Shown piece after piece: positions 22,178 to 33,076 of a stretch of DNA of 33,076 nt. Origin of the DNA: Ruminococcus sp. (GTDB lineage Bacteria; Bacillota; Clostridia; Oscillospirales; Ruminococcaceae); NCBI GenBank assembly GCA_020860605.1, contig JAJBTZ010000056.1, positions 1-33,076 of the forward strand, given 5' to 3'. The notes under the pieces were generated by a model, which made no database searches, had not been told where the DNA came from, and saw nothing but the letters and a program-made list of their open reading frames with translations. The first letter of the stretch is position 1; each line of letters opens with the position of its first letter. The position numbers were made by a program, and so were the translations under genes.

Positions 22178-23203
22178 ATGGGAAATAAGGCAGTAACCTT
22201 CGGTGAAATAATGCTGAGACTCAACCCGGAGGGCTATTTAAGATTTTTGCAGGCCAACACCTATGAGGCAACCTTCGGAGGAGGAGAGGCCAACGTTGCA
22301 GTGTCTCTCGCCAACTATGGCGTAGACGTTTCGTTTGTCACAAAGCTTCCCAAGCACGAAATAGGTCAGGCAGCCGTTAACGAACTGAGACGCTATGGCG
22401 TCGACACCAGCGATATCATCAGAGGTGGCGACAGAGTCGGAATCTACTTCGCCGAGAAGGGCGCTTCTCAGAGACCTTCAAAGGTCATCTACGACAGAGC
22501 CTACAGCGCTATCTCGCTCGCCAAGCGTGACGAATTCGACTGGGACAAGATTTTCGAAGGCGCCAAGTGGTTCCACTTCACCGGCATCACTCCGGCACTC
22601 GGTGGTGAGCTTCCTGAAATCTGCCTCGACGCCGTCAAGGCAGCACACGCTAAGGGCGTAACAGTCAGCTGCGACCTTAACTATCGTAAGAAGCTCTGGA
22701 CAAGAGACCAGGCTCGTGAATGCATGAGTAAGATTGTTCCTTATGTCGATGTCTGCATCTCTAACGAGGAGGATGCCAAGGACGTCTTCGGAATCGAAGC
22801 TGAGAACACCGACATCGACTCCGGCAAGCTCAATCACGAGGGCTACATCAGCGTTGCCCGCCAGCTCCACGAGAGATTCGGCTGCAGCCATGTTGCAATC
22901 ACACTTCGCTCCTCCATCTCCGCCAACGACAACGACTGGGCAGGTATGCTCTACACAGGCGACAACGCCTATTTCTCTAAGCAGTACCACATGCATATTG
23001 TCGACCGTGTCGGCGGTGGCGACAGCTTCGGTGGCGGACTCATCTATTCGCTTATGAATGATTATGAGCCCCAGAAGGCTATAGACTTCGCAGTCGCAGC
23101 CTCCTGCCTGAAGCACTCTATCGAGCACGACTTCAACCTCTGCTCAGTTGCAGAAGTAGAGTCCCTGGCTGGCGGAAACGCCTCTGGCAGAGTTCAGCGC
23201 TAA
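22178..23203 (+). CDS. kdgK: 2-keto-3-deoxygluconate kinase (PfkB family)
   Basis: A 341-aa ribokinase/PfkB-family kinase that phosphorylates KDG to KDPG with ATP. The N-terminal FGEIMLRLNPEG and GGGEANVAVSLANYG are the sugar-binding part; the second signature, DRVGGGDSFGGGLIY, holds the catalytic Asp. TATAGGAGG precedes the ATG. It is co-transcribed with the aldolase that uses its product, and its substrate is made by UxuA on the other side of the shared promoter region. The terminator at 23244 follows. Confidence 0.95.
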   Translation: MGNKAVTFGEIMLRLNPEGYLRFLQANTYEATFGGGEANVAVSLANYGVDVSFVTKLPKHEIGQAAVNELRRYGVDTSDIIRGGDRVGIYFAEKGASQRPSKVIYDRAYSAISLAKRDEFDWDKIFEGAKWFHFTGITPALGGELPEICLDAVKAAHAKGVTVSCDLNYRKKLWTRDQARECMSKIVPYVDVCISNEEDAKDVFGIEAENTDIDSGKLNHEGYISVARQLHERFGCSHVAITLRSSISANDNDWAGMLYTGDNAYFSKQYHMHIVDRVGGGDSFGGGLIYSLMNDYEPQKAIDFAVAASCLKHSIEHDFNLCSVAEVESLAGGNASGRVQR

Positions 23204-23243
23204 GCGCTTAATCATCGTCAAAAATGTGAAGGGCATCCTATAG

Positions 23244-23285
23244 AAAAAGCTCGGACAAGGCGACTAACCTTGTCCGGGCTTTTTT
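23244..23285. terminator. Bidirectional terminator between kdgK and the small membrane protein
   Basis: Arms CGGACAAGG and CCTTGTCCG with a 7-nt loop, flanked by AAAAAGC on the left and GCTTTTTT on the right. The stop codon of the convergent gene lies in the loop. Confidence 0.88.
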
Positions 23286-23647
23286 AGGGTTTTGAATATG
23301 GAGGATAGATGTATACAGATTGAAATTGCTATAAGCCCGAACCCGACAACCCAGTAAACGGCGGTCAGTCGGTTCGTAGTCCCGTAAATCTCTAAAACGC
23401 CTGTGAAGACTGATCCCACAGACAGCGCTGCGATCCCGGAATTATATAGATTCTGAGCTGCTCTTTTTGGAATCCCTTTTCCGAAGTAGGCGTATAGAAA
23501 CGCCGGCAGCGCTCCGCCTGCAAGTGGAATCGCGAAGGCATAGAGCATGAAGTAAGAGTAAACCTCGTGGCTATAGACCTCATAAACCGCTCCGAATAGC
23601 GCTAAGAACAGTGAGCAACCGAGGTACGTAAGCCCAGTCTTCATCAT
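23264..23647 (-). CDS. Small four-helix membrane protein, unknown function
   Basis: A 127-aa protein (from ATG 23647) with four hydrophobic segments (roughly 6-22, 30-50, 70-88 and 95-112), a basic C-terminus (KTLKKPGQG), and no motif I recognise. A TTG start at 23671 is also possible, with AGGAAGG upstream, and would overlap the preceding gene by about 20 nt. TAAGGGC before ATG-ATG makes 23647 or 23644 more likely. It is the last gene after the GT2/GtrA and phosphodiester-glycosidase genes. Its final codons are encoded by the arm of a terminator. Confidence 0.7.
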   Translation of the reverse strand: MMKTGLTYLGCSLFLALFGAVYEVYSHEVYSYFMLYAFAIPLAGGALPAFLYAYFGKGIPKRAAQNLYNSGIAALSVGSVFTGVLEIYGTTNRLTAVYWVVGFGLIAISICIHLSSIFKTLKKPGQG

Positions 23648-23651
23648 GCCC

Positions 23652-24623
23652 TTAGTATCCGATGTAGACAATGTCGCTCACCTTCCTTTCCTTGATGGAG
23701 TTGCCACTGGAGGTGGGATTATTTATAACCTCGCCGTTAAAGACCATCGTCGAGGACCCTCCGCCATCGAGGTTGTAAGCTGTCTCAACTCCCAAGCCCT
23801 GCATAAACTCCGCAAGCTCATAGAGCGACAGCCCTTCGCTCTCGTCGGTTCTTCCGTCAGCAACTACGAAAACATAGTGAAGGTCACTGATAATTCCGAT
23901 AGCAGTACGTGGATTGCTCGTCTTCGCCTTTCCGACCTCTTCGTCCACGGTGACACTGATTTCGCCACTCTGAACGAGTGCTGGGCCAAACGACAGAACC
24001 TGAACAGCACCATTCGCCAGCAGCTCTTCCGCTGTCATATCGCCTTCAGAAATAATCTCAAAGCTCCCATCCGAGTAGATGACCAGGTCCTCGTTGTCAG
24101 AAGAACCAGTACTTCTGTAGAGAACCCCATTTCGGATGACATACCCCGTCTCCTGGGTTCCATAGTAGTCGCCGTTGATGGCCAAGATAGCGCCAACACT
24201 GTCGGCGATGGATGAAGTCTTTTCGGTGACATTCTTCCCATAAGCGCTCTTCGCAAACGCTGTTTTCAGGTATTCAGCCGAGGAGAGCACAACGTCTGCA
24301 ACATAAATAGTCGTGTCATTCTCCCGATACTCGGTTAAAGTAATCGTAATGTTCCCATCGCTGTAGTAATTGTCTGTGATGACAGTCTCCACCTCGGTGA
24401 CAACAGCAGCCTCAGTTGTGGCAGGAGTTGTTGTAGTCTCAGGCACTGTGGTCTCTTCTGTCACCTCGGTAACAGCAGTTGTAACTGAGCTTGTAGCTTC
24501 AGCTGTATTTTCAGCAATTTCGCCGTAGACGGTCTCCAAGACAAAAGTATCGAGTGCAATATAAACAGTAAACCCGACAAGAGCAATCGTGTAAAGAATC
24601 GCCCAAAGGTGACGCCTGAACAT
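23652..24623 (-). CDS. Phosphodiester glycosidase (NAGPA-domain) membrane-anchored protein
   Basis: A 323-aa protein with an N-terminal membrane helix (about 7-27), a Thr/Glu-rich linker (about 35-80) and an extracellular NAGPA domain. Family motifs are AILAINGDYYG, NPRTAIGI and YNLDGGGSSTMVFNG. Bacterial relatives remove phosphodiester-linked sugars or act on phosphoglycosylated surface polymers. The ATG at 24623 has AAGGAGA about 9 nt upstream and overlaps the end of the GT2 gene; a GTG two codons earlier is less likely. With a glycosyltransferase upstream, the pair may build and trim a surface glycan (inference). Confidence 0.88.
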   Translation of the reverse strand: MFRRHLWAILYTIALVGFTVYIALDTFVLETVYGEIAENTAEATSSVTTAVTEVTEETTVPETTTTPATTEAAVVTEVETVITDNYYSDGNITITLTEYRENDTTIYVADVVLSSAEYLKTAFAKSAYGKNVTEKTSSIADSVGAILAINGDYYGTQETGYVIRNGVLYRSTGSSDNEDLVIYSDGSFEIISEGDMTAEELLANGAVQVLSFGPALVQSGEISVTVDEEVGKAKTSNPRTAIGIISDLHYVFVVADGRTDESEGLSLYELAEFMQGLGVETAYNLDGGGSSTMVFNGEVINNPTSSGNSIKERKVSDIVYIGY

Positions 24624-24625
24624 GC

Positions 24626-25675
24626 TCACAAGTCTCCTTTGCTCGGTTTACGCCATCCCACAAAGCCGTCAAAAATCCTTATAATCATAAACACAACCAC
24701 TTGTCCCAAAATCTTCGAAGGATAAACACTCCATCCTCCGCAGACCGCCAGAAGCCATATAAGAATTGTGCCTAAGATGACCGACAGTGCTCCTTCCGCC
24801 ACAAACCGTTCAATCTGCTTCGAAGCCCCGCTTTGCAAGGGCAGGGAAGTGCTGAGGTCCCGCCTTATCGCCCGGCTTAAAATCCCTGCAATGACGTTTG
24901 CAGCCACGATTCTCAGTGGCCCTTCGATCCCCATCGCCAGCATGAATATCACTGAAAAGATGGTTATGTCGAGTAGCGCTCCGATTATCGAAGCCTCCTT
25001 AAATCTGAGAATCTCCCGATACACTCTCACCGAATCCCTTATAGGGTCGAAGTGTGAGGAGAAATTCCCGTCAATATAAATGGTTTTTATCTCTCGCTCG
25101 ACAATCTCAGTTCCCGATTCGGGGAGCATGAGCAGAGCGTTCATCTCATATTCATATCTCTCGCCAGGGATTTCAAGGAGCTTACTTACGAGTTCCCCAG
25201 AAAAAGCTCTGAGCCCTGTCTGCGTGTCGCTGACTGATTTGCCTGTCGCAAGAAAGTAGACAATCTTCGTGACCGTGTTCCCAAACCTGCTCCTTAGTGG
25301 CACTTTCCCGTCAAAAGCTCTCACGCCGATTACCATCGCCTGAGGGTTTTCCTCGGCGACTTTTATTACCTTGAGGGCATCAAGGTGAGAGTGCTGCCCG
25401 TCAGCGTCCATAGTGACGACGGTGCAGTCAGCGCCATAGTGGAGCTGAATATACTTGAGCCCTGTTTTTATAGCAGCTCCCTTGCCCTTGTTTTCCTTGT
25501 GGGAGAGCAGCATCGCATAGTTGGAAGCCTCAAGAAATATGCTCTCGTATTCTTCTGAGCTTCCATCGTCTATGAGAACAGCATCAAAGCCAGAGGAGGT
25601 GACCTCTTCAAGAAGAGTTATAAGACCGTCTGATGGCTGATATGCAGGAATCAGCGCTATACGTGTTTTTGCCAT
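24626..25675 (-). CDS. Bifunctional glycosyltransferase family 2 / GtrA-like membrane protein
   Basis: A 349-aa fusion. Residues 1 to about 225 are a GT2 domain of the dolichyl-phosphate-mannose-synthase type: IALIPAYQP, VLIDDGSS, ENKGKGAAIKTGL, TMDADGQHS (metal-binding DxD-like) and SDTQTGLRAFS. Residues 230 to 340 hold four membrane helices of the GtrA/DPMS type. Such enzymes load a sugar on polyprenyl phosphate and flip it for wall-polymer or protein glycosylation. GAAAGGGA is the ribosome site. A terminator hairpin lies only 15 nt upstream of the start, so expression depends on readthrough (see 25691-25877). It leads an operon with the phosphodiester glycosidase. Confidence 0.88.
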   Translation of the reverse strand: MAKTRIALIPAYQPSDGLITLLEEVTSSGFDAVLIDDGSSEEYESIFLEASNYAMLLSHKENKGKGAAIKTGLKYIQLHYGADCTVVTMDADGQHSHLDALKVIKVAEENPQAMVIGVRAFDGKVPLRSRFGNTVTKIVYFLATGKSVSDTQTGLRAFSGELVSKLLEIPGERYEYEMNALLMLPESGTEIVEREIKTIYIDGNFSSHFDPIRDSVRVYREILRFKEASIIGALLDITIFSVIFMLAMGIEGPLRIVAANVIAGILSRAIRRDLSTSLPLQSGASKQIERFVAEGALSVILGTILIWLLAVCGGWSVYPSKILGQVVVFMIIRIFDGFVGWRKPSKGDL

Positions 25676-25690
25676 AGTGGTTCCCTTTCG

Positions 25691-25718
25691 AAAAACTGGA
25701 GATGCCAGGCATCTCCAG
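25691..25718 (-). terminator. Terminator/attenuator directly before the GT2 gene
   Basis: On the minus strand, a perfect 10-bp stem CTGGAGATGC-ctg-GCATCTCCAG is followed by TTTTT. The ATG of the GT2 gene lies 15 nt after the T run, so no promoter fits in between. Confidence 0.75.
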
Positions 25719-25744
25719 CGATAAAATGCTTTTGTTAAAAAGTT

Positions 25745-25877
25745 TGAAGTTGCGAAGCAACTTCAGCATATAATGCTTTCGGCATTATATGTGGTAATCC
25801 TGCCCGAACGAACACTAAACAGAAGTGAGGGTGAAACGCTTAGTGAAAATGTAAAAGGATGAGCTCGTTCGGGCAGG
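25745..25877 (-). other. Stacked hairpins between the beta-helix gene and the GT2 gene
   Basis: On the minus strand: an outer 13-bp perfect repeat CCTGCCCGAACGA/TCGTTCGGGCAGG (25877-25865 with 25811-25799) encloses CACTAA...TTAGTG (25845-25840 with 25818-25813). Then comes CATATAATGC-cgaaa-GCATTATATG (25791-25767), then TGAAGTTGC-ttc-GCAACTTCA (25765-25745). It may be a structured 3' UTR of the surface-protein operon, a leader of the GT2 operon, or a small RNA. No protein is encoded here. Confidence 0.6.
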
Positions 25878-25889
25878 TTTTACCCGTTG

Positions 25890-28661
25890 TTAAGTTTGGG
25901 CGCCGACGTTCATGTCGCCACCTCTGCCACCTCCGCCGCCGAAGCCGCCTTGATTGCCTCCCATATCTCCGCCTCCTATGTCTCCACCAGGAGCAGAGCC
26001 GGAGTCGGGTGTATTCGTTCCGCTGTCAGAGTTATCTCCTCTGCCACCGCCCATGTCCATGTTTCCGCCACCCATGTTACCGCCAGTCATTCCTCCCATG
26101 CCAGTGGTTTCGCTGTAGATAAGGCTTGAAAGTGTGACCGAGGTGCTGCTCCCGCCATAGGTGACCGTGTAGGTCGAGCCTGTGGTGAGGGATGGGCAGC
26201 TTATAAGGATGCATGAATATGAAGAGCTGCATGTATACGAAGCAAGAACGTTTCCGCTCGAGTCTTTAAGAGTGATAGTGTCGCCTGAAGAACCGCTCGC
26301 CGAGAGGAGCATTGCTCCCTGAGTCGAGCTTGAGCCAAAGTTCTCCTGCATTCCAGAAGCGCCGACCGCTATGAGGGTTCCGCCGGTGATAGTCGCTGAA
26401 GATTCCCAGTCGACAGGTGCATCAGCAGAAGTCGTAGGACCAGAGACATAAAGCTCTCCGCCTGACATTGTGAATGAGCCGTTCGAGTCGATTCCGTCTC
26501 CGCTTGCCTTGACGTAGATGACACCGCCAGAGATGTTTATCGACGAGGATGAGCTGCTCGAGCCGAAGGAATCTCCGCCGAAACCTCCGAATCCGCCGAA
26601 ACCGCTCGAGTCGGCTCCGCCAGCAGCGTTGATGCCGTCGTCGCTCGAAACGAGGTCGATATTTCCGCCTGAGATGTCAACCGTCTCGCCCTCAAGGCCT
26701 TCATAGCTCTGCGAGATGTTGATGGTTCCGCCCTTAATGGTAAGAGTGTCGTCAGCATGAATACCGTCATCGCCGGTAGCGATGTTGAAGGTGCCACCAG
26801 AGATCGTGACGTCTCCGTTCGAGTGGACGCCATCGTCCTCAGAATCGATTTCGAATGAGCCACCAGAAATGGTGACCGACGTTCCGCCTTTGAGGCCCTT
26901 GGTGCTCGAGGAGTCGTCCGAAGATGAGCTCGAACCGCCCCAGCCGTCCCAGCTGAAGGCTCCGCCAGAGGTGTAGGAGGTCGAAACCTCACCTGCACCG
27001 TCAGCAGTTGTGATGTCGAAGTCGCCGTCCTCAATCTGCAAGTAAGTCGCAGCGCTGATTCCGTCGCCATCGGCAGTGATATTGAAGGTTCCTCCTGAGA
27101 TGTAGACAAATCCTATGGAAGTGTCCGAAGAATCCTCAGCGTGAATTCCGTCTTTCGTAGAGTCAATAGTGAAGCTGCCCTTCGCAATTCTGACGCTCTC
27201 GCCAGCCGAAAGCCCGTGACCTCCTGCCGTAATATCGGCAGAGGAGAGGGAAGTGATCTGAAGGGTAGTATCAGCGTGAATTCCATCGTCTTCAGCGTCG
27301 ATAGTAAACGTGCCTCCTGAGATGGTGACGCTTGCATCCGAATGGATAGCGTCGTCAGCTGAATTTATATTAAGAGTTCCGCTTGTAATCTTGACGGAGC
27401 TCACCGCCTTGATGCCCTTGAGGCTCGTGTTCGAGCTCGAAAGCCCAGCATTTATAGTGAAGGTTCCGCCTTCGATTGTGACATAGGTCGCAGCACTGAT
27501 TCCGTCATCATCTGCAGAAATCTTTATGGTGCCACCTGAGATGTAAACAAACCCGATGGTCGAGTCATCAGAGCTTTCTGAGTGAATTCCGTCCTTCGCG
27601 GAAACTATCGTGATGGTTCCGTCAGCGATTCTCACGCTTTCATAAGCCGAAAGTCCGTGTCCGTCCGCATCGATATCGATGGTCGAATCGGTGATTATAA
27701 TAGCCAGGTCAGCCTGAATTCCTTCGTCAGCAGCTGAAATAGTGAAGTCGCCATCTTTAATAGTGACGTTACTCGAAGCACTTACTCCGTCGTCAGAGGA
27801 GGTGATATCAAAAGTTCCGCCAGTGATATAGATATATCCAAGACTGGTATCATCCGAATTCTCCGAATGAATTCCATCCTTGCCAGAAGAAATCGTGAAG
27901 GTTCCGCCTGCAATCTTGACACAGTCTTTCCCGCTCAGGCCATGACTTGCAGCTGTGATCTTATAAGTTCCACTCGTAATAACTAAATCGTCTTTAGAGA
28001 CAATTCCGTGTCCAGCAGCTGCATTGATGGTAAGAGTTCCAGAGCCGTTAAGAGTCAGGTCGTCTTTCGAATAGATAACCGCATCGATGTTGTTATCGTC
28101 GATTGCAACATAGCTTCCGCCGTTTGCAAGGGTGTTCGAGGTCCCGGAATTGGTCGTGATGTAGACCTTGTCGGCGTTGAGAACGTAAATAGCAGCCGAA
28201 GTCTTGCTGGTGATCGAAACACCGTTCAGGATAATCTGAACTTCATCTTTGCTGTCAGCATCAACAATAATCATGCCGTCAGAAAGCGTTCCGCTGACCA
28301 CATAGGTCCCAGCATCGGTGATAGTGACCGTGCTTCCAGAAATCGAGACGGAGGAAGAAGAGCTCGAAGACGAAGTATCTGAAAGCGTGATAGTCACGCT
28401 CGTATCCTCGTCGTACCCGACCTCATAATCATCATCGCTGAACACTTCGCTCTCGTCAGTGCCGGTGGCGTCTTCAAACATCGTTTCCGGGTCGGCTTCG
28501 ACTATCTCGGAATCGACCGAGAGCTCCGCAAACATCTCCGACTCATCGATTGTAACAAGCTCGATTTCGTCGCTTTCTTCCATTGAGCATCCAGAAAAGC
28601 ATGTAAGGAACAAAGCCACTGAAACCATAAGTGACATAATTCTGCTTATCTTGTAATTCAT
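25890..28661 (-). CDS. Giant Cthe_2159-like beta-helix carbohydrate-binding lipoprotein
   Basis: A 923-aa exported lipoprotein (lipobox FSGC, Cys25). After an acidic region (26-90) come many beta-helix rungs such as VTISGGTFTI, DDGIHAD and SGGTF. They match the family of C. thermocellum Cthe_2159, a polygalacturonate-binding beta-helix. Three long units repeat the order GHGLS - SVRIA - KDGIHSE - GFVYISGGT - DDGISAATY. Residues about 675-715 form a Gly/Ser insert and the last 80 residues are Gly/Met-rich. It is the third gene of the VTC-DUF4956 operon, 35 nt after DUF4956. Pectin binding would suit the uronate genes nearby (inference). Confidence 0.85.
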   Translation of the reverse strand: MNYKISRIMSLMVSVALFLTCFSGCSMEESDEIELVTIDESEMFAELSVDSEIVEADPETMFEDATGTDESEVFSDDDYEVGYDEDTSVTITLSDTSSSSSSSSVSISGSTVTITDAGTYVVSGTLSDGMIIVDADSKDEVQIILNGVSITSKTSAAIYVLNADKVYITTNSGTSNTLANGGSYVAIDDNNIDAVIYSKDDLTLNGSGTLTINAAAGHGIVSKDDLVITSGTYKITAASHGLSGKDCVKIAGGTFTISSGKDGIHSENSDDTSLGYIYITGGTFDITSSDDGVSASSNVTIKDGDFTISAADEGIQADLAIIITDSTIDIDADGHGLSAYESVRIADGTITIVSAKDGIHSESSDDSTIGFVYISGGTIKISADDDGISAATYVTIEGGTFTINAGLSSSNTSLKGIKAVSSVKITSGTLNINSADDAIHSDASVTISGGTFTIDAEDDGIHADTTLQITSLSSADITAGGHGLSAGESVRIAKGSFTIDSTKDGIHAEDSSDTSIGFVYISGGTFNITADGDGISAATYLQIEDGDFDITTADGAGEVSTSYTSGGAFSWDGWGGSSSSSDDSSSTKGLKGGTSVTISGGSFEIDSEDDGVHSNGDVTISGGTFNIATGDDGIHADDTLTIKGGTINISQSYEGLEGETVDISGGNIDLVSSDDGINAAGGADSSGFGGFGGFGGDSFGSSSSSSSINISGGVIYVKASGDGIDSNGSFTMSGGELYVSGPTTSADAPVDWESSATITGGTLIAVGASGMQENFGSSSTQGAMLLSASGSSGDTITLKDSSGNVLASYTCSSSYSCILISCPSLTTGSTYTVTYGGSSTSVTLSSLIYSETTGMGGMTGGNMGGGNMDMGGGRGDNSDSGTNTPDSGSAPGGDIGGGDMGGNQGGFGGGGGRGGDMNVGAQT

Positions 28662-28696
28662 ATTTTTATGCTCCTATAGTTCCAAGCTTTTTATAA

Positions 28697-29392
28697 TCAA
28701 AGCTCCGCAACCTGATTTTCCTGCTTGGAAATGGAAATCTCAAGGTTGCCGTTACGGCAGCGAAGCTGGTCGATAAACTCCTTCTCCTTCGAAGGATCTC
28801 TCAAAACAAGGTCATAGGTGAGCCTGTAGAGGCTTCCCATGTTGGTGGTCTTGACGTGAGTCAGCTCATATTCGGAGGTGTACTCCTTGAGGAGGTCGTC
28901 AAAAACTCCAGTGTAGTCAAGGTCTTCAGGGATAGTTATGTGAAGTGTCTTATACTTCTGTCCTCTCTTCTTTACGCCGAAATCAAGAGTCGAGTAGAGC
29001 ATACTTACAGCTCCGAAGAGAATAGCACACAAGAATCCGAAGCCTATGTATCCCATTCCAACGACAAGTCCTGTTCCCATTGCAAGGAAGATTGCAAGAA
29101 TCTCCTTCGCAGTTCCTGCAGCAGAGCGGAATCTTACGAGACTGAAAGCTCCCGCAACTGCAACCGCAGTTCCGATATTGCCGTTGACCATCATTATAAC
29201 AACGCAGACAACCGCCGGTAAAAGCGCGATTGTCGCGACAAAACTCTTAGTGTATCTGGTCTTATACATGTAACATAACGCCAGAATCAGTCCTATGACG
29301 AGTGCAGACACCACACAGGCTAAAAAGTCGGAAACAGTGATGGTTGAAACGGTGTCTGAGTCAAAAATTCCTTTGAAAAGATTGTTAAGCAT
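28697..29392 (-). CDS. DUF4956 membrane protein
   Basis: A 231-aa protein of the DUF4956 family. About four membrane helices fill residues 22 to 135, including the conserved AVAGAFSLVRFRSAAGTAKEI; the last 90 residues are a soluble domain (KTLHITIPEDLDYTGVFDDLL...). The biochemical function is unknown. It is regularly found next to VTC-domain polyphosphate-polymerase-like proteins, as here. Its start lies 8 nt inside the end of the VTC gene, so the two are translated together and their products probably work together at the membrane. Confidence 0.9.
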   Translation of the reverse strand: MLNNLFKGIFDSDTVSTITVSDFLACVVSALVIGLILALCYMYKTRYTKSFVATIALLPAVVCVVIMMVNGNIGTAVAVAGAFSLVRFRSAAGTAKEILAIFLAMGTGLVVGMGYIGFGFLCAILFGAVSMLYSTLDFGVKKRGQKYKTLHITIPEDLDYTGVFDDLLKEYTSEYELTHVKTTNMGSLYRLTYDLVLRDPSKEKEFIDQLRCRNGNLEISISKQENQVAEL

Positions 29393-30137
29393 AGAGACGT
29401 CCTCCAGTTGTTACTTGAATTTTAGGGGTGTGGTTGTCGAGGGTATGCTCCTCAAACATTCTCTGATAGGCTGTGCCGTACTTCGAGAAGGATGTTTTGA
29501 ATATCCCGAGGCGATTCAGCTCGTGGCTCATCCATAGCGGATATCCGCCAGAAGTTTTTATCTCCATAAGGGTCATTCCTTCAGGAAGAATCGAAAGCCC
29601 ATAGGCGTCGCTTCCCAAAGAGAAGTCGTCCTGCCTGCAAAGAATATTCTCGTCAAACGTGACTCTGAAATCTGAGCCGTCATCCGAATAGAAAGCCTCG
29701 CGTTCATAGGAGATGAACATCGCCGGCATCAGATTGCCATAGTAGTTCCTGAAATACTCAATCTCGTTTGCGATCTGAGTGTGAAGAGGGAGCGGCAGAC
29801 CGTTGAGCAGGCAAAGAGTTGCATCTCCTGCCGGAAGCTCGAGCCTTCTCTTATACACTACCGACTTGTATTTCTTCTTGAGCTCCACAAATGCCGGGTC
29901 CTCAGGCCCAACCTTGCGGTAGCTTCGTAGCCTCAGCTTTTCCTTGTAAGTGGGGCTCTCGAGGGAATGTCTTATCAGACGGTAGTTTTCTGTATCAAAA
30001 TAGATATTTCTAATTGTTGTTCTTCCGTACTTGTCAAGCTCCATGTATGGTCGCATGGCTTCGAGAATCGCATACTTCTGAGCACGTGTTAGCATGTATT
30101 TGACCTCATAGCGTTTGAACGTTGCTTGATAGTCCAT
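29385..30137 (-). CDS. VTC-domain protein (polyphosphate-polymerase-like)
   Basis: A 250-aa cytoplasmic protein of the VTC fold, the tunnel-shaped catalytic domain that in yeast Vtc4 makes polyphosphate. Basic tunnel strands are visible: FKRYEVKYML, IRNIYFDTENYRLIR, YKEKLRLRSYR and ELKKKYKSVVYKRRLELP. The acidic metal ligand lies in TLMEIKTSGGYPLWM. In bacteria the activity is mostly untested, and these proteins usually travel with DUF4956, CotH kinases and beta-helix proteins. AAGGAGG lies 6 nt before the ATG. The gene has a 135-nt structured leader and a promoter with a putative response-regulator site. Confidence 0.92.
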   Translation of the reverse strand: MDYQATFKRYEVKYMLTRAQKYAILEAMRPYMELDKYGRTTIRNIYFDTENYRLIRHSLESPTYKEKLRLRSYRKVGPEDPAFVELKKKYKSVVYKRRLELPAGDATLCLLNGLPLPLHTQIANEIEYFRNYYGNLMPAMFISYEREAFYSDDGSDFRVTFDENILCRQDDFSLGSDAYGLSILPEGMTLMEIKTSGGYPLWMSHELNRLGIFKTSFSKYGTAYQRMFEEHTLDNHTPKIQVTTGGRLYA

Positions 30138-30194
30138 TATTATCCTCCTTAGATTTTAAGGGCCTTTGCGAAATTTCAAATCATAAATGGGGGG

Positions 30195-30270
30195 TCCCTG
30201 AGGCACACCCAAATTGTATTCCGAAAGGAGTTCAGAAGGAGCACGAATTTGAGGAGGTGTACCTCAGGGA
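30195..30270 (-). ncRNA. Long stacked leader hairpin of the VTC operon
   Basis: Minus strand, starting about 2 nt after the predicted transcription start. Stem 1 is 15 bp (30270-30256 with 30209-30195, one U.G pair), stem 2 CAAATT/AATTTG (30251-30246 with 30215-30210), stem 3 TTCTGAA/TTCGGAA (30237-30231 with 30225-30219, one U.G pair), apical loop CUCCU (30230-30226). On the plus strand both wobble positions become A.C mismatches, so the minus-strand RNA is the folded one. The loop is complementary to the VTC Shine-Dalgarno. Confidence 0.6.
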
Positions 30271-30278
30271 ATGATTAA

Positions 30279-30311
30279 AGTATACTTTACATTCCTTAAA
30301 TCTACCTTAAA
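30279..30311 (-). promoter_or_regulatory. VTC operon promoter with OmpR-type direct repeat
   Basis: Minus strand: TTTAAGG-taga-TTTAAGG (30311-30294, 11-bp period), 9 nt, then -10 TATACT (30284-30279). No -35 box is needed if the repeat is bound by an OmpR/PhoB-type activator. The same 18-bp element and 9-nt spacing occur at the two-component promoter at 32324-32356. Confidence 0.7.
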
Positions 30312-30337
30312 CCGGCTGTGAAAGTCAGGTGAAAGTA

Positions 30338-31618
30338 TCATGAAGGAAGTGTGACGGTAATCAAGAGCGATTTCTCGTCGGTAGTAGAGGCTGAAATCTT
30401 CCCCTTGTGAGCTGTAACTATTGCAGCAGCGATCGAAAGCCCCAGGCCATAGCCTCCAGTCTGCGAATTCCTGCTTTCGTCGGTTCTATAGAACCGATCA
30501 AATAAGTGAGGCAGGCTTTCCTTCGGCATATAAGGGCAGGTGTTAAAGACCATAAGTCTAATAGACCCTCTCTGCTGCTCGAGAGTGAGACTAATCGTCC
30601 CATTCTCATCGGAATACTTCATAGCGTTGTCAAGAAGAACCGAAAGCAGCCTTCTTATCGCCTTTTCGTCGCCGTTAAGGCTTATCATCGGCTGAATTGA
30701 GCCTGAAAGGTTCTTTCCCTGAGTCTTCGCCAGAGAGCGATACTCATCAAGCGTCTCCTCGACGATATCCGAAAGAGGGAAGTCGAGCATCTGATACTCT
30801 GGCTCTGCCTCATCCATTCTTGAAAGCATGATAAGGCTGTTCGTCATGTCTGTGAGCCTCGAGACCTGAGTTCGGATGTCTGTAATCCACTCGTTCTCGC
30901 CGATGTCCATCTCGAGTACCTCAGCATCCGCTCCGATAACGGTGAGTGGAGTCTTGAGGTCGTGCCCAGCGTCGGTGATGAACCTCCGCTGCTTTTCATA
31001 GTTTTCCCAGAACGGCTTGACAATCCTTCCCGAAAGGAAAATAAGCAGCACCAGAACCATCACAAGTCCTGCAGCCGAAATCCCGAGGGAAGCCGTGATG
31101 ACAGTCCTGAAAGTCGAGAGATTTCTTGCACAGTCAAGGAACACAACCGTCGTCTCGGTTTCGCCCTCATACACAAGATACCTGTAGTCGTCCATGAAGC
31201 CCTTCGTCTTGCCACTCGCGATAACATTCTCAGCATACTCAACCGCAGCCGAGGTGCCAACAGCAGCAATCTTTCCAGTGTTCACGGAAACGAGATTTCC
31301 AGAGCGGTTGTTGAAGGTGACGGTGAAGTATCTCGACTCATATTCGAGCTCAGGAGATGAAAGAATGTCATTCTGGCGTCTTGAGCCGCTTTCTATGTTC
31401 ATATCTCCGGCGCCAGGGCCTTCGTTATCTACTGGAAGCTCGTCAACCTTGTCGGGAAAAGCTCCGCCATTGTCCGCAAGAAGCGTGAGAATCAGATCCG
31501 CATCGTCGACAATTCCACGATAAGTAGAATAGGTGATTGCCCCAACTACAACCGAAAGAACGATTATGAGCGAAAGCATCGTGGCGCCGATAAGCTTGAG
31601 ACGTAGATTATTAATCAT
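30338..31618 (-). CDS. Two-component sensor histidine kinase
   Basis: A 426-aa membrane histidine kinase. Helix 1 (about 8-30) and helix 2 (173-196) frame a roughly 140-residue extracellular sensor domain that I do not recognise. DAGHDLKTPLT (217-227) is the H-box with phospho-acceptor His219, followed by LSVLLDNAMKYS (N-box) and GGYGLGLSIAAAI (G-box). The ATG at 31618 overlaps the response-regulator stop by 8 nt and has GGAGGAG upstream; a frame extension to 31648 is rejected. It is co-transcribed with the response regulator. The VTC operon starts 26 nt beyond its stop, with no clear terminator between. Confidence 0.94.
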   Translation of the reverse strand: MINNLRLKLIGATMLSLIIVLSVVVGAITYSTYRGIVDDADLILTLLADNGGAFPDKVDELPVDNEGPGAGDMNIESGSRRQNDILSSPELEYESRYFTVTFNNRSGNLVSVNTGKIAAVGTSAAVEYAENVIASGKTKGFMDDYRYLVYEGETETTVVFLDCARNLSTFRTVITASLGISAAGLVMVLVLLIFLSGRIVKPFWENYEKQRRFITDAGHDLKTPLTVIGADAEVLEMDIGENEWITDIRTQVSRLTDMTNSLIMLSRMDEAEPEYQMLDFPLSDIVEETLDEYRSLAKTQGKNLSGSIQPMISLNGDEKAIRRLLSVLLDNAMKYSDENGTISLTLEQQRGSIRLMVFNTCPYMPKESLPHLFDRFYRTDESRNSQTGGYGLGLSIAAAIVTAHKGKISASTTDEKSLLITVTLPS

Positions 31619-32291
31619 CGGGAATCTCCTCCAGTGCATAGCCTGCATTTCTGACAGCCTTGATCTGGATATTCGCCTTCAGGGCGTCAAGCTTCTTTCG
31701 TAAGTAGGAGATATAAACCCAGACGACATTGATTTCCGAGTCGCTGTCATATCCCCAAATCTTCTCAAGGAACCTCTCAGAGGGAATAATAGTGTGGGGA
31801 TTACTCATGAGGAATTCGAGCATCTGAAACTCTTTATTTGCAAGCCTTAAGCTCCCCGAAGGGGTCGAGAGCTCGAATGTGGCTCTGTCAAGCGTCACAT
31901 TCCCAAACTTTATCTGTGAGCTCTGATGCTGAGTTGAGGTCCTCGTCATCGCCCTGATTCTCGCTAAGAGCTCCTGAGAGTTAAACGGCTTCGTAAGGTA
32001 GTCGTTAGCACCCAAATCGAGCCCTGTGACCTTGTCGCTGACCTCAGACCGAGCCGTGAGCATGAGAACAGGGACGTTGTTTCCTTGCTTTCTCATCTCT
32101 TTAAGAACGGTGAACCCGTCCATCTTCGGCATCATGACATCTAAGATAACACCGTCATAGTTGTCGGCATTCAGGTAATTAAGAGCCTCCTGTCCATCAT
32201 AGACAGCATCAACAGAATAGTTATTTCTTTCGAGTATCGCGACCAGCGCTTTTGATAAAGCCTTTTCATCTTCAGCTAAAAGAAGCCTCAT
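31611..32291 (-). CDS. OmpR/PhoB-family response regulator
   Basis: A 226-aa response regulator. The receiver domain has acidic residues EDE (7-9), phospho-acceptor Asp51 in VILDVMMPKMDG, Thr in LMLTARS and Lys in LTKPF. The C-terminal winged helix includes LRLANKEFQMLEFLM and VWVYISYLRKKLD. AGGGAGG precedes the ATG. The promoter at 32324-32356 carries a tandem TTTAAGG repeat of the type this family binds, suggesting autoregulation; the twin site at the VTC promoter suggests that operon as the main target. Confidence 0.96.
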   Translation of the reverse strand: MRLLLAEDEKALSKALVAILERNNYSVDAVYDGQEALNYLNADNYDGVILDVMMPKMDGFTVLKEMRKQGNNVPVLMLTARSEVSDKVTGLDLGANDYLTKPFNSQELLARIRAMTRTSTQHQSSQIKFGNVTLDRATFELSTPSGSLRLANKEFQMLEFLMSNPHTIIPSERFLEKIWGYDSDSEINVVWVYISYLRKKLDALKANIQIKAVRNAGYALEEIPDD

Positions 32292-32323
32292 GCTTAGTCC
32301 TCCCTAAGATTCATCTTTCTATT

Positions 32324-32356
32324 ATAATACAATTCCAACCTAAAATCTACCTTAAA
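32324..32356 (-). promoter_or_regulatory. Two-component operon promoter with OmpR-type direct repeat
   Basis: Minus strand: TTTAAGG-taga-TTTTAGG (32356-32339), 9 nt, then -10 TATTAT (32329-32324). It matches the VTC promoter in 17 of 18 positions with identical spacing. Confidence 0.7.
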
Positions 32357-32393
32357 TTTCGGTGAATGTTTAGAAAAACAGTAGAATATTCAA

Positions 32394-32423
32394 GGACCGA
32401 AGCGAATCTCTTCACTTCGGTCC
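32394..32423 (-). terminator. Hairpin after rqcP
   Basis: Arms GGACCGAAG and CTTCGGTCC with an inner GAA/TTC pairing. On the minus strand it is followed by TTGAATATT, a weak T tract. It is probably the terminator of the hup-rqcP operon. Confidence 0.6.
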
Positions 32424-32439
32424 CGAATTTAAGATGTGA

Positions 32440-32682
32440 TCAAGGAATAATCTCGTATTGTCCAGCAGCGGTTTCTTTCGTTGCATATTCAGAAACCGAA
32501 AGGACTTTCACCTTGAGCGGATTCTTTCCGAGCTTAATCTCGATGATGTCGCCGACCTTCACTTCATAAGAAGCTCTCGCAGGCTTGCCGTTTGCCAAAA
32601 TTCTTCCTGCATCGCAGGCCTCGTTGGCAACGGTTCTCCGCTTGATAAGACGGCTGACCTTTAAGTATTTGTCAAGTCTCAT
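32440..32682 (-). CDS. rqcP: S4-domain RNA-binding protein RqcP (YabO-like)
   Basis: An 80-aa S4-domain protein: MRLDKYLKVSRLIKRRTVANEACDAG...VNGK-type loop (ILANGKPAR)...VKVGDIIEIKLG. RqcP helps RqcH add alanine tails to nascent chains stuck on 50S ribosome subunits. Length and sequence fit the YabO group rather than the longer Hsp15. GGGAG lies upstream of the ATG. It follows hup, a common Clostridia order, but the usual yabP/yabQ/divIC genes do not follow. A terminator stands between it and hup, only 22 nt before its start. Confidence 0.93.
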   Translation of the reverse strand: MRLDKYLKVSRLIKRRTVANEACDAGRILANGKPARASYEVKVGDIIEIKLGKNPLKVKVLSVSEYATKETAAGQYEIIP

Positions 32683-32704
32683 ACTATCTCTCCCTTTTTA
32701 GTCT

Positions 32705-32733
32705 TAAAAAACAAAGCCGACCGAGGTCGGCTT
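32705..32733 (-). terminator. Terminator between hup and rqcP
   Basis: Minus strand: AAGCCGACC-tc-GGTCGGCTT (32733-32714), TG, then six T (32710-32705). Confidence 0.85.
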
Positions 32734-32749
32734 GCCTTTTCGTAAATTA

Positions 32750-33019
32750 TCAGACAGACTCCTTAAGAGCCTTGCCGGGCTTGAAAGCGGGAACCTTTCT
32801 TGCAGGAATTGCAATCTTCTCGCCAGTCCTCGGGTTGATACCCTCTTTAGCCTGACGCTCTCTGACTTCGAAAGTTCCGAAACCGATGAGAGAAACCTTC
32901 TCACCCTCGGAAAGAGCCTCAGTGATGGCGGCAACTACTGCAGATACAGCCTTCTCAGAATCCTTCTTGGAGAGGCCGGACTTATCCGCAACCTTGCTTA
33001 CTAATTCAACTTTTGTCAT
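32750..33019 (-). CDS. hup: HU-family DNA-binding protein
   Basis: An 89-aa nucleoid protein of the HU/IHF family that bends and compacts DNA as a dimer. It starts [20 protein letters not shown] and has the signature [24 protein letters not shown], with the DNA-gripping arm ending [24 protein letters not shown] precedes the ATG. Only 57 nt of upstream sequence is in the window and I see no clear promoter in it. A terminator follows directly, and then rqcP. Confidence 0.97.
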
Positions 33020-33076
33020 GATGACTTCCTCCGTAATTATTTCGCCTGCGTGAACATAGATCCATAAGCTATATTC

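Follow-up and report, generated by a model that had tools for sequence, protein, structure and literature searches.

The window analyzed here is a stretch of 33,076 nucleotides from Ruminococcus sp. (GenBank assembly GCA_020860605.1, contig JAJBTZ010000056.1), which on its minus strand carries genes for an OmpR-type response regulator and a sensor histidine kinase, and an operon encoding a VTC-domain protein, a DUF4956 protein and a secreted protein of the Cthe_2159 family (Table 1). The same short direct repeat, which resembles the box bound by the streptococcal regulator CiaR, stands in two promoters, that of the regulator and kinase genes and that of the VTC operon. Our subject is this pair of elements, the protein predicted to bind them and the genes they would control. 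An earlier note on this DNA had called the five genes as VTC, DUF4956, a beta-helix-family protein, an OmpR-type regulator and a kinase, and these calls were borne out by a Pfam scan; among the NCBIfam matches listed, no model passed its cut-off for the five locus proteins.

Table 1. Genes, promoter elements and leader features of the regulator and VTC loci (window coordinates)
Feature	Position	Strand	Remarks
OmpR-type response regulator	31611-32291	-	recognition helix VVWVYISYLRKKL, aa 189-201
Sensor histidine kinase (HisKA/HATPase)	30338-31648	-	likely start 31618 (MINNLRLK)
VTC-domain protein, polyphosphate-polymerase-like by family	29385-30137	-	PF09359, E 1.8e-37
DUF4956 protein	28697-29392	-	PF16316, E 3.9e-14
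Cthe_2159-family secreted protein, lipoprotein-like signal	25890-28661	-	PF14262, E 3.8e-166
CiaR-type direct repeat, response-regulator/kinase promoter	32339-32356	-	TTTAAGGTAGATTTTAGG; TTTAAG-GTAGA-TTTTAG plus trailing G
-10 box TATTAT, regulator promoter	32324-32329	-	10 nt past repeat
CiaR-type direct repeat, VTC operon promoter	30294-30311	-	TTTAAGGTAGATTTAAGG; TTTAAG-GTAGA-TTTAAG plus trailing G
-10 box TATACT, VTC promoter	30279-30284	-	10 nt past repeat
5' leader of VTC operon	30138-30278	-	~140 nt from -10; covarying long hairpin
Long hairpin arms	30256-30270 and 30195-30209	-	encloses inner hairpin
Inner hairpin	30219-30237	-	no change across 9 genomes; loop CUCCU

The two 18-mers had been described as sharing 17 of 18 bases, as ending 9 nt before their -10 boxes and as lacking a good -35 box, and each of these descriptions stands: the identity and the 9-nt distances to TATACT and TATTAT are found on the minus strand, and a sigma-70 promoter scan of positions 23000-33076, which listed no promoter at either element, agrees with the poor -35 regions. 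Because the 18-mer includes one trailing G, these 9 nt are the ten of CiaR when the count starts from TTTAAG. In the regulator promoter, an alternative -10 box (TATAAT) lies 3 bases beyond TATTAT. Compared with the box TTTAAG-N5-TTTAAG, the VTC element is exact and the regulator element has one mismatch. A search of the window with the pattern TTTAAGGTAGATTTWAGG, allowing up to 3 mismatches, gave two matches, both exact, and in 100 shuffles of the window the mean was 0.06 and two matches were never reached; in the whole genome (2.28 Mb) the same search found 4 places, with the window pair as the only exact ones.

A stricter pattern that includes the -10 box (TTTAAG-N5-TTTAAG-N10-TANNNT, at most 1 mismatch of 16) matched three times in the window's own genome (G000), at the VTC promoter with no mismatch, at the regulator promoter with one, and, also with one mismatch, in the box itself, at C23:345074-345106 on the minus strand, 54 nt 5' of the start of an unlinked gene for a secreted lipoprotein. 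The half-sites of this third site enclose a spacer other than that of the window pair, and the G is kept in both half-sites at all three sites. The lipoprotein (L254:3045-5036) is 663 residues long, contains an Asp/Gly/Met-rich stretch, matches no Pfam family at the cut-off, and has repeats that look beta-helical by eye. As a separate observation, a Met/Gly-rich tail resembling that stretch is also seen in the window's Cthe_2159 protein. The genome-wide search proposed in the earlier note thus gave a clear answer at high stringency, with matches confined to the circuit (both promoters in the window plus that of the third gene), and none below it: once 3 mismatches are allowed, the reversed control outnumbers the pattern by 166 to 77, so that weak matches carry no meaning. 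The site C23:262906, which differs from the element at two bases, lies inside an ABC-transporter open reading frame and was taken as chance. Three of the genome's 2-mismatch sites were inspected (L215/L216, which are one place, L219 and L221), and no related target was seen at them.

Within the genus, a match to the VTC gene was present in 31/31 genomes, with a copy 89-94% identical in 10 congeners. In those 10 the strict pattern matched 27 times, as against 8 for the reversed control, and the matches comprised the VTC promoter in 10/10, the regulator promoter in 7/10, the third promoter in 8/10 and 2 others. The third gene itself is present in 9 of the 10 congeners, G207 having only a 53-residue piece, and its box is kept in all 10 genomes in which the gene was found (the 9 congeners and the window's own), including G210, where the box scores 10/12 and the gene is open and encodes 681 residues.

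Beyond the genus, a scan of named genomes with the VTC protein gave 511 relatives, and since the best 80 were kept, the loci compared are those whose VTC proteins are nearest to that of the window. Among these 80 and the window itself (n = 81), a linked regulator with a VVW helix was found at 51, one of another type at 6, an intermediate at 1, and none in reach at 23, of which 11 lie near a contig end and 5 of the other 12 still have a strict box. The genes are arranged either in the order regulator-kinase-VTC-DUF4956-Cthe_2159 or with the regulator pair divergent from the VTC operon. Promoters were compared at 46 loci with a regulator of the window's type, 44 from the scan and 2 from family genomes (L188 and L191), with the window's close group excluded; counts over these loci are not independent because near-identical ones (L099, L101 and L102) are included, and the set also takes in a regulator with a VVWVHIS helix (L152) and loci whose regulator or kinase open reading frame is broken or incomplete (L109, L128 and L134). 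Duplicates (L193, L195 and L196) are outside the counts, L160 (helix VVWT) is in neither regulator group, and five loci whose VTC match did not exceed 120 bits (L172, L174, L209, L210 and L211) were left out of the locus table.

In a search of all 4096 hexamers at five periods, with three shuffles as control, TTTAAG was the top word at period 11 in both sets of promoters, occurring in 25/46 VTC promoters (shuffle mean 2.0) and 31/46 regulator promoters (shuffle mean 1.7). The -10 box lies exactly 10 nt past the box in 25 of 40 boxed VTC promoters and 31 of 41 boxed regulator promoters. A strict box together with a -10 box is found at 32/46 VTC promoters and 31/46 regulator promoters, and at both promoters of 23/46 loci, while the same rule was passed by 0/46 coding sequences past the VTC start and 2/46 reversed sequences, and 60 permuted half-sites gave medians of 1 and 0.5; the other words that scored highest under this rule, TTAAGT and GTTTAA, are register shifts of TTTAAG. 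A check named in the earlier note, whether relatives have the element ahead of these operons, thus came out in its favor, in congeners and in distant loci alike. The period is a different case: 11 bp is the clean rule in the window's close group, while distant relatives have TTTTAAG with 10 bp between the cores no less often. At period 10, TTTAAG is again first in VTC promoters, with a count (31/46) above that at period 11, and in regulator promoters TTTTAA is first (32/46), with TTTAAG in 21/46. The cross-species consensus is about TTTTAAGTTcAtTTAAGGT, and its upstream half is looser than that of CiaR.

In 7 of the 46 loci (L100, L103, L109, L112, L114, L125 and L127) a gene for a trypsin-like protease lies between the kinase and VTC genes. 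All seven proteins match Trypsin_2, partially in L125, and no PDZ domain was listed for them at E <= 0.01; a PDZ domain defines the HtrA (DegP) family, and as Trypsin_2 was found without it we call the protease only HtrA-like. At six of the seven loci a box of 11-12/12 with period 10 lies 5' of the protease gene, that is, the box follows the operon head. When the protease promoter is counted as the operon head, a box of at least 9/12 with a -10-like hexamer is found at 44/46 loci, and one of at least 10/12 at 38/46. In [Ruminococcus] torques ATCC 27756, a gene between kinase and VTC (L156:6298-7917) is arylsulfotransferase-like (PF05935).

Evidence on the binding protein comes from seven loci (L140, L145, L148, L162, L167, L168 and L197, the last from the window's own genus) in which the same operon is accompanied by a regulator with the recognition helix NVEVYMSF[TA]RKKL. 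At 7/7 of these the VTC promoter has a perfect TTCAAT-N5-TTCAAT with the -10 box ten bases on, and 6/7 regulator promoters have a TTCAAT repeat (4 perfect and 2 at 10/12), in 5 of those 6 nine bases from the -10 box. In a tree of VTC proteins, from which 6 congeners were left out, the proteins of the TTCAAT type nest among those of the TTTAAG type, with 4 label changes by parsimony; the well-supported branches force only one, so the regulator type may have switched once or several times. This covariation of regulator type with half-site, seen in the sequences, points to the neighboring regulator as the binding protein. Genomes in which the VTC operon has no linked regulator add to the picture. 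Among 27 such genomes, which are those fetched and not a random draw, and in 13 of which the VTC gene compared is more distant (genus-mates, 38-43%), 7 have a strong VTC box (at least 11/12), and a CiaR-like regulator is encoded elsewhere in 7/7 of the genomes with the box as against 5/20 of those without it (Fisher p 0.0009, uncorrected for kinship). The comparison took one regulator from each genome, the one with the best score (two in G138); the sorting of helices was by eye, and it placed G197 (VVAVYINYLRDKV) among the genomes that lack a CiaR-like one.

The systems with which this arrangement can be compared are known to us from the available portions of the published accounts. The CiaR box has been given as TTTAAG-N5-TTTAAG and later as NTTAAG-N5-TTTAAG, a distance of ten to TATAAT was used in the search for CiaR-dependent csRNA promoters, and the CiaR recognition helix is VVEVYVSKVRKKL, at residues 189-201 (PMC3091779). 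Our locus is similar to CiaRH of streptococci in its half-site, its 11-bp period, the ten bases to the -10 box and the site in the regulator's own promoter, and the window helix VVWVYISYLRKKL, which occupies the same residues, is identical to that of CiaR at 9 of 13 positions (the differences being E to W, V to I, K to Y and V to L). In addition, streptococcal htrA is among the targets of CiaR (PMC8317062), just as the HtrA-like protease gene carries the site in some relatives here. It differs from CiaRH, as far as the latter is described in those portions, in occurring in Lachnospiraceae, Oscillospiraceae and other Clostridia, in having the VTC/DUF4956/Cthe_2159 operon as main target, and in a looser upstream half-site in distant relatives, where TTTTAAG is common. 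BAS0540-BAS0541 of Bacillus anthracis, which has been called the homologue closest to CiaRH in that species, recognizes this box in vitro, also at the promoter of its own genes. Among the bound targets named in the available part of that account are FtsA, YflT, a self-immunity gene and an RND transporter subunit, and no VTC operon (PMC4938410). By the likeness of box, spacing and helix, the circuit would work in the manner of CiaRH. In the parts available of reports on VTC genes in Clostridium perfringens NE loci and in Streptococcus sanguinis, no link to CiaR was seen (PMC2879425, PMC5817204). A CiaH motif was sought in the literature, was not found and was not used.

Taken together, we consider it highly probable that both elements are binding sites of the adjoining regulator, with CiaR specificity, and that a self-activating circuit drives the VTC/DUF4956/Cthe_2159 envelope operon. 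The earlier note had read the regulator beside the two sites as part of one circuit, and that reading gains support from the element upstream of these operons in relatives and from the covariation of regulator and half-site. In such a circuit the kinase would phosphorylate the OmpR-family regulator of CiaR-type DNA specificity, and the phosphorylated dimer, bound head to tail on the repeat, would take the place of a -35 box at 10 nt from the -10 box and recruit RNA polymerase by class II activation. This class II arrangement is known for PhoB and agrees with the promoters of CiaR. The targets raised would be the operon of the regulator itself, that of VTC, DUF4956 and Cthe_2159, and, for the genome of the window, the one unlinked secreted lipoprotein gene, and because a site lies in its own promoter the regulator operon would be under positive feedback, the outcome being a small, positively autoregulated envelope regulon. 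As a guess, the signal could be the state of the envelope or cell surface, and the product a surface polymer or the modification of one.

A reading in which the regulator binds both sites but represses, covering the -35 region until a signal releases it, is the one that survives best among the alternatives, and we think it unlikely. A site over the -35 region fits steric repression as well, and the CiaR target manLMN is reported, in the portion of the literature available, as being under negative control; on the other hand, neither promoter has a recognizable -35 box, so that both would be expected to be weak without an activator, and the 10-nt distance kept across species is that used in searching for CiaR-activated csRNA promoters (available part of PMC3091779). 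It is very improbable that another regulator binds the element and the neighboring two-component system is merely co-regulated. Several family genomes do have a box before VTC with no regulator gene found beside it, but the box type tracks the regulator type, where the box is present and the linked regulator missing, a CiaR-like one is encoded elsewhere in all seven genomes, and of the 7 Trans_reg_C proteins found in the window's own genome the other 6 have other helices. That the likeness of the two promoters reflects a recent duplication without regulatory meaning has hardly any probability, for while 17 of 18 bases are identical with the 4-base spacer included, the half-sites and the -10 distance were found to be kept across genera as spacer and flanks vary, and in the third promoter, which is unlinked, the half-sites stand around a different spacer.

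Several results weigh against activation of both promoters by a CiaR-type regulator, and they concern first the promoters themselves. Activation is read from the position of the site, by analogy. A second -10-like peak lies at 15 nt in 12 of 41 regulator promoters, and a poor -10 box (TAAGTT) follows 2 of the 6 protease-gene boxes. No strict VTC box is present at 14/46 loci, in 7 of which the protease gene comes first, and the claim leans in part on the looser box cut-off. Upstream of VTC, the strict rule is also passed by the reverse strand at 7/46 loci, partly because divergent loci share that region with the regulator. Outside the close group, a core spacing of 10 bp exceeds one of 11 bp both at operon heads (34 vs 10) and at regulators (24 vs 12), ties being scored as 10 bp, and the upstream G that is reported as invariant for CiaR is relaxed or shifted in distant relatives. 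In seven named relatives (L103, L108, L114, L130, L150, L156 and L158) the strict pattern gave 5 matches, in 3 of the 7, compared with 16 for the reversed control; no matching target was seen at four of the five, and one abuts a run of N. Relatives from other genera often have the period-10 form, for which this pattern is too strict. As for the regulators, unlinked ones with the helix NVEVY[IV]SF[LI]RKKL accompany TTTAAG at VTC, so that the code between helix and box is not readable from one residue, and a CiaR-like regulator also occurs in five genomes (G106, G143, G199, G201 and G224) whose VTC promoter carries no strong box.

A further layer of control may lie in the leader of the VTC operon. 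Its folding beats 200/200 shuffles (z -4.2), and in the long hairpin 7 of 22 pairs show changes on both sides over 9 sequences; sliding the pairing partners breaks the structure. The shuffle control for covariation was mixed, the pair count being reached by 27/500 shuffles, the covariation score by 9/500 and the pair-type count by 248/500. The loop of the inner hairpin reads CUCCU, a complement of the Shine-Dalgarno AAGGAGG, and our guess is that the leader masks the VTC Shine-Dalgarno. Translation may thus be a second level of control in the near relatives that have the covarying leader. Rfam gave no match in positions 29900-32700 at E <= 1. The leader core was also considered as a recurrent DNA-binding site and was rejected, since the window's own genome has no second exact copy, only one at 3 mismatches.

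With regard to the proteins, the kinase has a conserved extracytoplasmic domain (about 31073-31543), for which a mixed alpha-beta fold was predicted (pLDDT 78); a fold search with this model gave no match at E <= 0.001, and the zinc-sensor domain of CzcS appeared at rank 11 as a weak match (E 0.034). By phmmer, the VTC protein matched Vtc4 in the Protein Data Bank (PDB) weakly (E 0.48). The 923-residue Cthe_2159-family protein, in which PF14262 matches 4 stretches, matched PDB entry 4peu over 230 residues (E 2.7e-40), and 4peu and 4phb are entries that we take to be Cthe_2159 of Clostridium thermocellum, which belongs to the same Pfam family. Proteins of this family are described, in the part of the source available, as having a beta-helix and as binders of cellulose and polygalacturonic acid (PMC6712302). 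What the named families are known for, polyphosphate synthesis and pectin binding, may also apply to the window proteins. The available part of a survey of pel clusters reports accessory genes for CotH, polyphosphate polymerase, DUF4956 and DUF4832 beside those clusters in streptococci and clostridia (PMC7112168). These are similar to our operon in combining a polyphosphate-polymerase-like gene with DUF4956, and differ in that the window has Cthe_2159 as the third gene and a linked two-component system; no CotH or pel family was found among the nine window proteins scanned, a subset of the window's genes. The pel-cluster neighborhood, as far as it is described there, favors a surface-polymer role for the operon. 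On the 3' side of the operon (window 23652-25675, minus strand) are genes for a phosphodiester-glycosidase (NAGPA) and a family-2 glycosyltransferase, and the same genome has a second, distant VTC gene (25% identical) at G000:C14:17370-18029 on the minus strand.

In the titles and abstract openings of the literature searched, of which coverage was incomplete, we found no description of this circuit. A wider picture, which we regard as possible though a little short of probable, is that a CiaR-like envelope-response system is widespread in gut Clostridia with a VTC-DUF4956-Cthe_2159 surface-polymer machine as its core output, that its specificity and half-site have been switched together from TTTAAG to TTCAAT, and that in the close group a covarying leader can mask the ribosome-binding site. 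The findings give a widespread and little-studied gut module (VTC, DUF4956 and Cthe_2159) a candidate regulator, a predicted site and a small regulon, and they would carry CiaR-type control, which has been described as streptococcal, well beyond the streptococci. TTTAAG and TTCAAT at the same promoter offer a natural experiment in DNA recognition by regulators of the OmpR family, and the signal kept together with the operon across many gut clostridia predicts that they have a control circuit in common.

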